Assembly (NCBI RefSeq): GCF_002056795.1
Contig: NZ_CP020104.1
Span: 7,387,501-7,451,500, forward strand
Direction of reading: 5' to 3'
DNA length: 64,000 nucleotides
DNA from: Spirosoma aerolatum
GTDB taxonomy: Bacteria; Bacteroidota; Bacteroidia; Cytophagales; Spirosomataceae
The notes beneath the pieces were generated by a model. That model saw only the letters and a list, made by a program, of their open reading frames with translations. It made no database searches and was not told the origin of the DNA. Position numbers and translations under genes: made by a program. Below, piece by piece: positions 20,159-64,000 of this stretch; positions within the stretch are counted from its first letter, which is position 1, and the number at the start of each line of letters is the position of its first letter.

Positions 20159-20944
20159 TTAAAAATGCTTGAGCATTCGGTTAATGTTGGATAAGTAGAC
20201 AAATGATTCATGCGAATCGACACCGCTTTCGTAGTCTTTGCTGATTCGACGGGACCAATTCATCTAGGTAAAAGTTCGTTCCACCTTCCAGCGCATGGGC
20301 ACGACCTAAAAACCGCCTAACTCGCTCATTTTGACCACCTCCAGAATCAGTCCGTAGAACTTCCTGAGCCAACGCGCTAATTTTTTTACCATACGCGCTA
20401 TCGGCCAATATTTTACTCATTCGTTCATAGCCTTGCCGCGCTAACGACGTCAGCACGGCACGAGCCGCCAAGCTATCGTGCTGGTTGGCTGCGTGAACCA
20501 CGACCACTAAAACCAGCCCCAGCGTATCGACCACAATATGGTGTTTATGGCCATTCTCTTTCTTATTGCCATCAAAGCCTTTAGGCACTACACCCCACTC
20601 GCTACATTTAACCGCACCGGCGGACCGGCTTTGCGAATCAATTACACCAACGCTGGGCGATGGTTCTCGATTGGCTTTCTTGCGTCGCCGTTCGACCAAG
20701 GCTTTATTAAGCCTCTCCCATGTTCCATCATTGCGCCATTTTCAGAAGTAATAATAAAACAAGGGCCAAGGCGGTAAATCGTTAGGCATCTGCCACCCTT
20801 GGTTTCCGGTTTTGGTGATGTACAGCAGCGCATTAAAAATCGCCCGTAGGGAATATTTGCGTTTTCGCTTGTCGGCCAAGATTTAAATTTCCAGGCGGAA
20901 TCAGTCAGGTCAGAAGGTATAGCTTTGGTCGGCTCATCCCCCAA
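20159..20944 (-). pseudogene. IS5-family transposase, multiply broken
   Basis: Reading across frames gives a recognisable IS5-type transposase: PSDLTDSAW, then after a frameshift KRKRKYSLRAIFNALLYITK, then an in-frame TGA between FYYYF and KWRNDGTWERLNKAL, then the DDE core starting GVIDSQS, KGFDGNKKENGHKHHIVVD and VVHAANQHDS. A further frameshift leads to WKVERTF, an in-frame TAG, and NWSRRISKDYESGVDSHESF ... NRMLKHF at the end. At least two frameshifts and two stops make it dead. Five extra residues (RSAGA) after IDSQS come from a 15-bp micro-insertion at 20613-20627. Confidence 0.85.
20613..20627 (-). repeat. micro-insertion copy (15 bp) in the IS5 transposase
   Basis: On the minus strand CGGTCCGCCGGTGCG stands between CAAAGC and GTTAAATG. 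Without it the protein reads IDSQSVKCSEWG, as expected for IS5-type transposases; with it, IDSQSRSAGAVKCSEWG. It is the same sequence as the copies in the IS1182 transposase at 63.2-63.9 kb. Confidence 0.8.
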
Positions 20945-23872: not shown

Positions 23873-23963
23873 GTAACGCGGACGGTCCGCCGTTGCGGTG
23901 GAAACCCACGCTCTATAGCGATTTAATGATCATCTACAGAGCGCGGGTTTCTACCCGCGTTAC
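23873..23963. repeat. long imperfect hairpin after mreB, one arm carrying a micro-insertion
   Basis: The outer stem is GTAACGCGG / CCGCGTTAC (23873-23881 and 23955-23963). Removing 23882-23897 from the left arm lets it continue pairing with the right arm through GAAACCC and GCTCT with few mismatches, about 30 bp per arm. Each arm also has an internal palindrome such as CGCGGGT/ACCCGCG. It may slow or reduce read-through from mreB into mreC. Confidence 0.8.
23882..23897 (+). repeat. micro-insertion copy (16 bp) in the mreB hairpin
   Basis: ACGGTCCGCCGTTGCG interrupts the left arm between CGCGG and GTGGAAACCC. The right arm, read in reverse complement, has GTAACGCGGGTAGAAACCC with nothing at this point, so the sequence is an insertion by direct internal comparison. 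Confidence 0.8.
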
Positions 23964-47024: not shown

Positions 47025-49223
47025 CTATAAATTCTTCTCGACAAAATCCGTCATCATCTGGTAGAGGTGCAAGCGGGTGTTACCTCCATAAATGCCGTGG
47101 TTCCGGTTCGGATAGTAAAACGACTGGAATTACTTTCCGGCTGCAATCAGGGCATTTTCGAAAGCCACCGAATTCTGAAAATGAACATTATCGTCGCCTG
47201 TTCCATGTACCAGCAAATAAGGGCCACGGAGCTTACTGGCGTGTGTTACCGGCGAATTGTCGTCATAACCTGCTGCATTCTCCTGTGGCCGTTTCAGATA
47301 ACGTTCGGTATAAATTGTGTCGTAGAATCGCCAGTTGGTAACGGGAGCGACGGAGATTCCGGCTTTGAACACATCGGCACCTAACGTCATACAGAGAGCC
47401 GTCATGTACCCCCCATAGCTCCACCCCCAAATGCCAACGCGGCTCTGATCAACATAAGGCAGGGTTTTCAACTGACGGGCTACGGCGATCTGGTCTTCGG
47501 TTTCGAGCTTGCCCAACTGTGCGTACGTGACGGTGCGAAATGCCGTTCCGCGTGCACCTGTTCCCCGCCCATCGACCGATACAACGATGTAGCCTTTCTG
47601 AGCCAGGGTTTGATACCAGAAGAAATCGCGGCTTTCCCAATCGTTCTTTACCGTCTGCGAACCTGGCCCTCCATACACAAACATCAAGACCGGATATTTT
47701 TTAGAACCCGTACTGTCGAACGTTGCGGGACGAATCATCCAGCCATTGAGTGCGGTACCATCGGCTGCTTTGCTTTGAAAAAACTGTTTAGGAGCGATAG
47801 CATAGGTCGCCAGCCGACTTTTCAAGCCCTCATTGGCTTCCACTACGCGAAGGTCATTGGTCGATTTCGTATCGCGAAGACTGACCCGCACCGGCGAATC
47901 GGCTGCTGTATGATATAACAGATAATAGGAAAAGTCAGGGCTGAACGTAGCCTTATACGTACCCGCCAGCGTAGTTAGCTGCTGCTTGCGCTGCCCATCA
48001 ATCCCGATTTTATATACATGCCGTTCGAGTGGCGATTGCTCGGTGCTTACATAATAAATCGTCCCCATCTTTTCATCGATCCCTGCCACCGTAATGATTT
48101 CAAAGTTGCCGCTGGTGATCGGACGAATGAGCTTCCCGCTAAGGTCATACAGATACAGATGTTTATAGCCGCTGCGTTCGCTGGTCCATAGGAACGACTT
48201 ACCATCACTCAGGTAAGTCAGATCGTCGGTAAACTCCAGATCAACATAGGTTGGGCTTGTTTCGGTCAACACCACTGTCGATTGGCCCGTTGTAGCGTTT
48301 ACATGCAGTAGATCGAGTCGATTCTGCAATCGATTCATCCGCCGGATCGAGAGCAGGTTAGCCTGCTTTGTCCATTGAATACGCGGCAGGTATATATCCT
48401 TATCGGCCAGGCCCGCTTCTGTTTGCGCCATCACCTTTTTGCCTGACACCACATCAGCTATCCAGACCGATACCTTTGAATTAGCTTCTCCTGCTTTTGG
48501 GTATTTGAAACGATATTCGACTGGATATAAGCCTCCCCAAAGCTGCATATCATATTCGGGAACGCGGCTTTCATCGAACCGGATCCAGGCCAGTCGTCGG
48601 CTATCGGGCGACCATTCGAACGCACGTGCCATGCTGAATTCCTCTTCATAAACCCAATCCGCTCCCCCATTAATAATAGCGTTTCGCTTCCCATCGGTTG
48701 TCAGTCGGGTTTCCTTACCTGTCGCCAGTTCAACCGCAAACAGGTTGTTGTCCCGCACAAACGCCACCCGTTTTCCATCGGGTGAAAAAGTAGCATATTG
48801 CTGTTTCCCACCCTTGCTAAGTGGTTTCAAGGACTTGGTGGCGAGTTCGTAGACATAAAATGTGGCCTTACTGGACCGACGGTATATCGGTTCTTCGTTG
48901 GTAGTCAGAAGCAGTTTTCGTTCGTCAGCCGACAACTGGTAATCACTCATAGTGATCGGCTTACCGGCCACCGTCGCTTGCCGTCCATCCAGCAATGTCT
49001 CGATGGGTAGCCCTGTCGTAATGGCAAATTTGACCACCTTATTACCATCCAGAGTCGTATAAAAGCCCCCGGCTTTCATCCAGTTTACAGCATCGACGGT
49101 TCGCTGGTTGAACACACCGGCATTGCGGCCCCAGATGTCATCGAGCGTCACCGGCTTTTTTGTCTGGCCGTAAGCTGTTATGGATAGAATAAAAAGATAG
49201 GCTGGAACCAGCAGATTTCTCAT
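47025..49223 (-). pseudogene. dipeptidyl peptidase IV-type peptidase, truncated by a nonsense codon before the catalytic histidine
   Basis: The frame starts at 49223 with a signal peptide (MRNLLVPAYLFILSITAYG), then the eight-bladed DPP IV propeller with the double-Glu motif YEEEF, and the alpha/beta hydrolase with GWSYGGY (Ser near residue 604) and GTGDDNVHFQ (Asp). At 47130-47132 a TAA interrupts after IAAGK (697 residues); beyond it, the same frame continues FQSFYYPNRNHGIYGGN... to a TAG at 47025-47027, carrying the catalytic His (NHGIYGG). A single change of CAA (Gln) to TAA explains it. The product lacks the triad histidine and should be inactive unless the stop is read through. Confidence 0.9.
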
Positions 49224-62405: not shown

Positions 62406-62663
62406 GTAAAGCCTGTTTATGGGAAGAACTGGCCCCTATTTCTGAGTTACAAGTGTTGCCTAAACTCATTTGAACTATCAAAATGATACGTTGTTTTTCG
62501 AGATGACATTTTGAGACGGCTGAGTAGACCTGAGTAGGGGTAAGCCAATAGTGTTGTATTCTATCTCGGGAAAACGGGCGTGGCTGTTGCACAACTCCGT
62601 TTTCTACGTTGATTTTTCATTGCCTGATAAGCTAATGGGATTTCTTGCTATTGTCTTCTCATC
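62406..62663. other. spacer between sigma factor gene and IS1182 element
   Basis: Contains GGCTGTTGCACAACTCCG near 62582-62599, a plausible left terminus of the IS, as it is 70 bp behind the transposase stop. The right end lies outside the window, so the inverted repeat cannot be confirmed. No gene is supported. Confidence 0.4.
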
Positions 62664-63214
62664 TCAGTTGAGAAAAAGCGTGGCCAAGTCTAGAAAAAGG
62701 CCTTGAGAAGCCGATGACCATTCCACTCTTAGGGCTATGGCCTGGCTGAGAGTGGACTTGGTGGTGAACTTCATGTACTTCTTCAAATTGAAGGCAATTG
62801 CCGCCATCAGCATCACCTTGTGAGCCCCAGCTTTACCCCGCACATTAATCTTGCATAACCCATTGTACTCCACCAGACTACCTAAGACCGGCTCCACCGT
62901 CCGTTGACGAAGCTTTTTCATGCGCTTGCCCCGCCGACCTTGCTGGCGCTCCAAGGCTCGACGATAGAACGGATCATAGGCCGTCCGGATAAATTGTCGG
63001 CATTGGCTTTTGGGTACACAGGTGGGTTTAAGCGGACATTGTTTGCAGTCCTGGTAATCCGCCCGGTAGACTTTCAACAAACCAGTTTCAGCATGGGTGG
63101 CAAAGGTCTTGAAAAGCAATCGCTTGCCAGCGGAACAAGTAAAGTAATCCCCCTCCGAATCATAGGGAAAGCCTTCGATGTGTGGCTTGTAGTGGCCAAA
63201 GACAGGTATCCAGC

Positions 63215-63230
63215 CGCACCGGCGGACCGT
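63215..63230 (-). repeat. micro-insertion copy (16 bp) in the IS1182 transposase
   Basis: Minus strand ACGGTCCGCCGGTGCG between CATTACGG and GCTGG. Removing it joins GWNIT to GWIPVF in frame. Confidence 0.85.
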
Positions 63231-63281
63231 CCGTAATGTTCCACCCTTCCAGCAAGGCGTAGTTGCTGCTGTTTGAGTAAC

Positions 63282-63294
63282 CGCACCGGCCGCC
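63282..63294 (-). repeat. micro-insertion copy (13 bp, shortened) in the IS1182 transposase
   Basis: Minus strand GGCGGCCGGTGCG between ACAGCCG and GTTACTC. Removing it joins ADTA to GYSNSSNYALLEG in frame. It keeps the 3' part of the consensus and is changed at its 5' end. Confidence 0.78.
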
Positions 63295-63485
63295 CGGCTG
63301 TATCAGCCAATATCTCTTCTAAACGTAGTTCATTGGATGCCAACCGCTGCTGAAGCTTGAGGGTGATATCAGGCAGGTATTGGCTGTCCCGGCCATCGGC
63401 AAAATCGGCCTGCACATGACTAATAACGCCTTCGGCGGTATCCACTGCCAGGCTACAAGGGTAGTTGAGTTTGCGGGCTTTACCG

Positions 63486-63501
63486 CCGGGCCGCCGTTGT
63501 G
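63486..63501 (+). repeat. micro-insertion copy (16 bp, opposite orientation) in the IS1182 transposase
   Basis: Plus strand CCGGGCCGCCGTTGTG between TTTACCG and GGCTTAATC, three changes from the consensus. Removing it joins SIKP to GKARKLNY in frame. Confidence 0.8.
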
Positions 63502-63833
63502 GGCTTAATCGAGATGAGCGCATCAGGGTCGGTAGGGCTGTAGTGGGTCTTGTTGCTCAGCAACTGGGCTTTTACGTTGCTAGCGCCTAGGGTTGTCGGT
63601 GCATTCTTCAAGTTTTGCTGATGCTTTTTCAGCCTTCTTAACGGGTGCTCGGCCGCGGTAATAACCGACCCAGTTTGACGGTTGCTGGGCTTCGGGCTCA
63701 CTTTCTCATTCTGATCCTCGACCGATTGGACCAGCTTGGGGCCAGGTAAATTGGGTTGTTTTTCGAGCATCGTTTCCATCAACGCATTCGCTTTGACCGG
63801 AGCAGAATCAATGGCAACCCGCCGACCAGCTAC

Positions 63834-63849
63834 CGCAGCGGCGGACCGT
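63834..63849 (-). repeat. micro-insertion copy (16 bp) in the IS1182 transposase
   Basis: Minus strand ACGGTCCGCCGCTGCG between AACAATATG and GTAGCTGG. Removing it joins VANNM to VAGRRVAID in frame. Confidence 0.85.
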
Positions 63850-64000
63850 CATATTGTTGGCCACACACAGGCTGAATACTTTGTCAAATAGTAACTCAAA
63901 AAGTGCTTCCGGGTAAAGCTGGCGGGTACGGCTCAGCGTGGAGTGCCAAGGTAATGGCTCATCAAGGTTGTACCCCAGGAAATACAGCATATCCAGGCGC

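Follow-up and report, generated by a model that had tools for sequence, protein, structure and literature searches.

An evidently mobile hairpin micro-element of 15–16 bp in an IS1182-family transposase gene of Spirosoma aerolatum

The analysed window, a stretch of 64,000 nucleotides of the Spirosoma aerolatum genome (contig NZ_CP020104.1 of assembly GCF_002056795.1, positions 7,387,501 to 7,451,500), ends inside an insertion sequence (IS) of the IS1182 family, which could be read by eye beyond the window end to approximately genome position 7451808. Its transposase gene is interrupted by four short inserts (Table 1). We used an insert-free copy from S. profusum (L066) as the reference for the frame comparison, and relative to it the window copy (L009) differs by four 16-bp insertions and one 6-nt in-frame deletion, with no stop in the codon columns of the alignment. 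A 1-nt difference from L066 near the stop is common to 17 of the 18 rows compared, and L010 ends before that point. The preliminary description of this DNA had reported that the reading frame becomes whole once the inserts are removed, which is true against L066 save for the 6-nt deletion, and that three inserts share one orientation while one is reversed, as their four coordinates and strands confirm. It had also given the insert length as 13 or 16 bp; comparison with empty sister copies gives 16 bp for each of the four, and the 13-bp figure was dropped.

Table 1. Position and character of the IS1182 copy, its inserts and further element copies (positions refer to the window).
Feature	Position	Strand	Basis or sequence
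IS1182-family IS, part within the window	62580..64000	−	DDE_Tnp_1_6 and DUF772 matches; sister copies; terminal repeat
IS1182 terminal inverted repeat, right end	62580..62597	+	14-base core at 62580; matching left end outside the window
Site 5 insert (reference nt 984)	63215..63230	−	ACGG-TCCG-CCGG-TGCG, 16 bp, exact match
Site 4 insert (reference nt 934)	63282..63297	−	CCGG-GCGG-CCGG-TGCG, 16 bp
Site 3 insert (reference nt 746)	63486..63501	+ (opposite orientation)	CCGG-GCCG-CCGT-TGTG, 16 bp
Site 1 insert (reference nt 407)	63834..63849	−	ACGG-TCCG-CCGC-TGCG, 16 bp
Further element copy outside the IS	20613..20628	−	Pattern match
Further element copy outside the IS, exact consensus	23882..23897	+	Pattern match

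A second IS1182 copy in the same genome is 75% identical over about 1.05 kb, and the same IS was recorded in Spirosoma profusum, S. spitsbergense, S. arboris and Larkinella soli. Mutual alignment with further copies from genus genomes produced clean 16-bp gaps, the net length in IS1182 being 16, with 15 or 14 in a few copies. The same sites are either empty or filled in sister copies, with the majority of aligned relatives being without the insert at any given site. Site 5 is empty in most sisters, filled in L065 and present in a 15-bp form in L101/L175; site 4 is also filled in L074 and L172, with a half adjoining IS110-family DNA in L171; site 3 is filled in the own-genome sister L010, with a half adjoining IS110-family DNA in L075/L080 (a single copy); and site 1 is filled in L010, L079, L084, L065 and L101/L175. 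The preliminary description had left room for a family without insert-free sisters; such copies exist, and insert-free relatives rule out residues natural to the transposase. An assembly error, or residues of that kind, is hardly conceivable as an explanation, with insert-free homologues at hand and the motif recurring in 36 of 36 separate genus assemblies. An IS1182 copy on a Spirosoma plasmid (L492) was searched for the element, and none was found. A relative from another genus, L178, carries inserts of 14, 15 and 15 bp at reference nt 28, 186 and 435, and its frame is open over 558 aa.

The number of matches exceeds chance: the window holds seven at up to three mismatches, compared with a shuffled mean of 1.51 and a maximum of 6 in 100 shuffles; the count over the own genome, given below, provides a stronger test. 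Copies beyond the four had been noted as well, and do occur, although there are two good ones in the window (Table 1) instead of one; a weak element-like match with three mismatches lies at 47887.

The inserts follow a common plan of a 4-nt stem, a 4-nt loop, a 4-nt stem and a 4-nt tail, typically NCGG-TCCG-CCGN-TGCG and then G. Among the variants seen where sites are empty in some copies and filled in others are GTGG-TCCG-CCAC-CGCG, GCGG-TCCG-CCGC-CGCG, CCGG-GCCG-CCGG-AGCG, CCAG-GCCA-CTGG-AGCG and ACGG-TACG-CCGT-CGCG. Across 17 distinct insert sequences, nine stem cells were changed on both sides, compared with 3.1 in shuffles, and 89.7% of cells were paired, compared with 73.9%, each value being reached in 0 of 500 shuffles; slid structures gave lower covariation scores. 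Two of the five covariation measures were unremarkable (both-side-change pairs were matched by 21 of 500 shuffles and further pair types by 116 of 500), and because the shuffles ignore kinship among the sequences, the covariation is by itself no proof. When six examples were folded as single-stranded DNA, the hairpin was the minimum-energy structure, with an unpaired centroid in one of them, and its stability did not exceed that of shuffles (z of −0.45 to −1.42; 12 to 63 of 200 shuffles as good). In 68 distinct canonical contexts, counted with duplicates removed by flank and with viral loci L336–L457 outside the count, the first stem base and its partner formed a Watson–Crick pair in 51, a G–T pair in 6 and no pair in 11.

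The base following the element is strikingly constant: it was G in 97% of these 68 contexts. Three other subfamilies, with 25, 10 and 6 copies (41 in total), have G there without exception, while for a fourth subfamily of 19 copies the search word itself included the following G. No target duplication was seen at empty/filled pairs, which, compared as sequences, establish insertion that is precise and lies immediately 5′ of G. Seven loci (118,001 bases) gave no Rfam match at the gathering score. A repair signature, one of the origins first suggested for the inserts, found no support, since the identical sequence recurs at unrelated sites.

We then considered the spread of the element across genomes. 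The canonical core CGGTCCGCCGNTGCG was present in 36 of 36 genus genomes (1 to 49 copies each; 3 matches in total for the reversed-pattern control). Of 150 family genomes, 86 contain it (at most 150 copies; 9 control matches in total), and single matches there may be due to chance. These searches place the element throughout the genus and the family, and the reversed-pattern controls rule out chance matching as its source. A broader pattern matched 40 places in the own genome, as opposed to one for the reversed pattern. Six of the 40 lie within the two IS1182 copies, one in an open reading frame (ORF) with an HTH_Tnp_1 match and another within the end of an aspartyl-protease-like ORF; five lie inside long open frames (284–740 codons) and may be native coding sequence. 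Canonical cores were also seen to be read through in frame inside long ORFs at L041:1501-1515, L042, L058 and L131, where they may be either 15-bp insertions or native residues, and a one-mismatch copy in L025, at about genome position 7879919, abuts the start of a putative tRNA gene. A first set of site-typical variants was found at 32 places in 16 of the 36 genomes, with the IS1182 site accounting for 5 of the 30 places read, and a second set at 20 places in 13 of the 36, with the IS1182 site again accounting for 5; neither set had a control match. Some of these variants, read by eye, recur across several species at an identical site within another IS. Viral contigs contained 116 stretches with the canonical pattern and 6 with one variant, which in our judgement is probably near chance, given the size of the collection.

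Outside IS1182, many copies in the high-copy family genome G102 are placed symmetrically in both arms of larger palindromes, and several elements of the own genome lie within REP-like palindromes. Mirror pairs with a matching variable base occur at L125:9731-9786, L130:8036-8119, L132:9345-9407, L134 and L138; template switching possibly copied the element between palindrome arms. Three REP contexts, compared after removal of duplicates by flank and with viral loci L336–L457 left out, gained a net 15 bp relative to their commonest empty form: CATCCCG-ACG-CAGGAGGGAT (6 empty copies, and 4 more with ACGC, versus 3 filled), GTAGAGAC-GCAA (2 empty versus 2 filled) and GAACAA-TG-TACAATG (2 empty and one with nothing between, versus 4 filled by a 17-nt stretch). 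The one-base shortfall of these contexts relative to the net length of 16 in IS1182 counts against the explanation that we favour below.

Across the IS1182 relatives, we counted 13 insert sites and 39 changes needed on the tree. The alignment comprised 40 rows, including the reference's own L066 and at least three doubled pairs (L075/L080, L096/L174, L101/L175). The tree was built on 35 rows longer than 700 bases, L170 being left out, and has long branches and open forks. The site count omits two inserts of L187 (15 bp at nt 224, element-like, and 14 bp at nt 799, not element-like) and foreign DNA in the aligned L170 and L185 rows; filled states that are partial, or halves with IS110-family DNA between them, occur at N2 in L010 and L186, at sites 2 and 3 in L075/L080 and at site 4 in L171. 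Copies from different genera have sites 1, 5 and 6, or 6 alone, in common. Weak target preference does not explain the re-use of the same 13 sites, which likewise counts against the explanation favoured below. The ratio dN/dS was 0.06–0.24 among 11 insert-bearing copies (55 pairs, dS mostly near 1) and 0.08–0.15 among 6 insert-free copies (15 pairs), and this similarity argues against old dead genes drifting together as the origin of shared inserts; the shared insertions are recent, copied between copies, or tolerated.

That the inserts owe their spread within IS1182 chiefly to recombination or gene conversion among IS copies, in a homing-like manner and from few original insertions, is a serious possibility, if not quite an even one. 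In keeping with it are the 39 changes over 13 sites and the frequent recurrence of one variant at one site, and yeast mitochondrial GC clusters show putative tracts of co-conversion (PMC4478555). Flanks near the inserts are also more alike in filled pairs: within 10 bp, the likeness of filled-filled minus filled-empty pairs was +0.066, a value that none of 100 shuffles reached. The excess was weaker in the shells to 30, 60, 100 and 150 bp (8, 7, 3 and 5 of 100 shuffles) and absent beyond 150 bp, in a comparison that left out L075, L175, L096 and eight distant rows. Either short conversion or a target effect of local reach would agree with this near-flank likeness, part of which can be due to a base accompanying the insert at sites N3 and 6. 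Spread chiefly by conversion agrees less well with the close relatives L084 and L064, which differ by two inserts while the L084 flanks stay L064-like right beside the site-1 insert, or with the N1 inserts of L063 and L084, which are quite different. A mixture of preferred insertion and recombination would be the most likely account.

The similar dN/dS values also bear on whether the inserts are damage at all. Mitochondrial byps are translational bypass elements, which are skipped in translation. By analogy, the inserts might be skipped during expression, so that the transposase would still work; the dN/dS of insert-bearing copies, much like that of insert-free ones, would agree with this, as would L009, which carries four inserts and no other frame-breaking change. 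Recent insertion gives the same dN/dS, however; L010, L076 and L079 also contain stops, large deletions or other IS, L065 and L101 have a small frame-breaking deletion, and L178 keeps its frame open with its 14- and 15-bp inserts. We regard such skipping as very unlikely.

The element is strongly over-represented in the examined IS1182 copies, and it is also present in REP-like palindromes. In genome G015, with viral loci L336–L457 left out, the 10 IS1182 copies, which span no more than 15 kb, contain 11 matches, as opposed to 7 in evenly spaced stretches totalling 400 kb, genic and intergenic pooled; 3 of these 7 fall in one IS cluster, which leaves 4 outside. Selection against host-gene insertions inflates this contrast and is a partial explanation of it. 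Of 17 ORFs flanking the variant GTGG-TCCG-CCAC-CGCG, 9 or 10 matched a Pfam family of transposase type (5 over the Pfam cut-off and 4 under, one being a helix-turn-helix alone), and the other 7 had no match or a different one, including one SbcC-like; several of the 17 share one site and are not independent. A host process that silences IS elements through aimed micro-insertion, akin to the transposase-directed silencing that the preliminary description had suggested, could produce the G015 density, the 6 of 40 own-genome matches in two IS1182 copies and the proximity of this variant to transposase-type ORFs. Nevertheless, many copies are intergenic and in palindromes, single IS copies bear up to six inserts, more than silencing needs, and both the shared sites among the 17 ORFs and the inflated contrast weaken the figures, which makes aimed silencing quite improbable. 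Marginally less so, though still unlikely, is a dedicated trans-acting machine that would preferentially write 16-bp frameshifting hairpins into transposase genes, with the variant matched to the target site, either as DNA-level immunity against IS or as a hyperparasite.

The element itself is a landing site for another IS. An IS110-family element (Pfam DEDD_Tnp_IS110) lands inside the hairpin: the 11 distinct right junctions all fall in element halves, as do 7 of the 13 distinct left contexts, far above the random expectation for the half patterns of 145 (right) and 826 (left) in 200,000 positions, although these patterns were drawn up with the junctions already in view, and the left word is short, so that some left contexts may not be this IS. 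Duplicates were removed by flank, and viral loci L336–L457 were left out. Such insertions were found at L010, L031, L075/L080, L079, L170, L203, L208, L225, L262 and L458. At L075:2619-3632, one IS110-family copy bears six family inserts in about 1 kb; both its junctions fall in halves of the IS1182 site-2 and site-3 elements, and the DNA between those sites is missing.

The junctions in element halves would also suit an origin in which an IS110-family recombinase takes the hairpin for its attachment site and leaves the inserts behind as scars or by-products. However, the ends of the IS, as read, do not include element halves, and the IS110 copy in L075/L080 itself bears six inserts; we hold such an origin to be decidedly unlikely. 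REP sequences are known as IS targets (PMC1525189), so that the element more likely came first. The likeness lies in a repeated palindrome that serves as a landing site, whereas here the site is a 16-bp element and the IS belongs to the IS110 family by Pfam.

The closest comparison is with REP and REPIN sequences. Like these, the element is a short multicopy hairpin with a conserved unpaired foot tetranucleotide (the fold being predicted, and no stabler than shuffles), often intergenic and often in inverted pairs, with many intergenic palindrome copies, no target duplication and an IS, here of the IS110 family, that targets it. The own genome, moreover, has genes for Y1 transposases, as do 9 of the 10 other genomes searched. 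A true REP family mobilised by a RAYT/TnpA-REP (Y1) transposase would combine these features, yet the element differs from REP/REPIN in its length of 15–16 bp, its single-unit insertions, the absence of a clear REPtron and its frequency in transposase genes. Its tail is NGCG (CGCN on the other strand) and its stem 4 bp long, where a GTAG/GTGG or CGTC tag and a stem of at least 5 bp would be expected; published stems have 5–13 bp with GTAG or CGTC tags, according to PMC3733652. Single units, and not inverted doublets as the moving unit, are polymorphic in IS1182; inverted pairs of elements exist, and those that were read occupy arms of larger palindromes. In PMC3116915, REP singlets are regarded as defunct REPIN remnants.

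The distribution of Y1 genes weighs against a REP family as well. A scan of 35 Y1 loci that allowed a mismatch (reversed control: 11 in 335 kb) found an element-like match within about 1.5 kb at 6 of them, and L265 alone is flanked by elements on both sides; the broken Y1 copy of L266 has four elements in or beside the gene. Genome G005, with 49 exact canonical copies, was searched for a Y1 transposase and had no match. A RAYT/REPtron partner was therefore rejected, the Y1 loci of the own genome and ten others carrying elements sporadically at most. In view of this distribution, we do not file the element as REP, and a true REP family strikes us as unlikely; we read its function as REP-like, although it falls outside the definition of REP.

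Other very short repeats offer partial parallels. The small dispersed repeats (SDRs) of Nostoc, reportedly 21–27 bp long and claimed by Elhai and others in 2008 to be mobile from presence/absence, likewise are very short and dispersed; they are set apart by that length and by their cyanobacterial host. The remark in the preliminary description that no such bacterial element is known was accordingly too strong, with REP/REPIN elements and the Nostoc repeats coming closest in kind among bacteria. SDRs are mentioned in PMC3116915. CGTC-tagged palindromes, found in Bacteroidetes among five phyla, are tagged small palindromes like the element and seem to be without a dedicated transposase, but have 8–9-bp stems and another tag (Di Nocera 2013; PMC3733652). 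Yeast mitochondrial GC clusters are also short GC-rich palindromic insertions, with an unclear mechanism and putative co-conversion, but they are organellar, longer (32–42 bp) and flanked by the short repeats AG or ACT (PMC4478555); at our empty/filled pairs, there was no short flanking duplication. No published description of the element was recognised among the best-ranked matches (7 to 15 titles per search) listed from the open-licence literature, where papers on REP, REPIN, mitochondrial clusters and IS110 were found.

Overall, we consider it rather probable that the four inserts are copies of a dispersed 15–16-bp hairpin micro-element of Spirosoma and its family that is mobilised in trans. 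Presence/absence at 13 IS1182 sites, dispersal through genus and family and stem covariation lend good support to the short mobile GC cluster that the preliminary description had proposed as one origin. From the sequence comparisons, the element is evidently real, dispersed and mobile, and it appears to be among the smallest mobile repeats in bacterial DNA. Since it has no room for a gene, it would be moved in trans. It most likely moves as a single-stranded hairpin, recognised through its stem, loop and conserved 4-nt tail by a putative nicking-and-rejoining enzyme, and copies already inside an IS probably also pass between IS copies by recombination. By analogy, the combination of a hairpin, a conserved tail, no duplication and a fixed neighbouring base would work like the single-strand transposition of REP or IS200/IS605 hairpins, a process treated in PMC6006769. 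No clear replichore rule for orientation was seen by eye in G022 (agreement in 12 of 19 singlets, with one singlet close to the switch point) from skew profiles of 40 stretches of 20 kb, in which G022 splits cleanly and G015 does not; on contig 1 of G022, with two inverted pairs set aside, 15 singlets were read by eye on one strand and 4 on the other.

A 16-bp insertion shifts the reading frame and should inactivate the transposase. If this account is true, some enzyme would insert tiny hairpins without duplicating the target, and the hairpin would be a natural source of frameshifts in transposases as well as a new landing site for IS110-family elements. Culturable Spirosoma with empty and filled IS copies would make this mobility testable.
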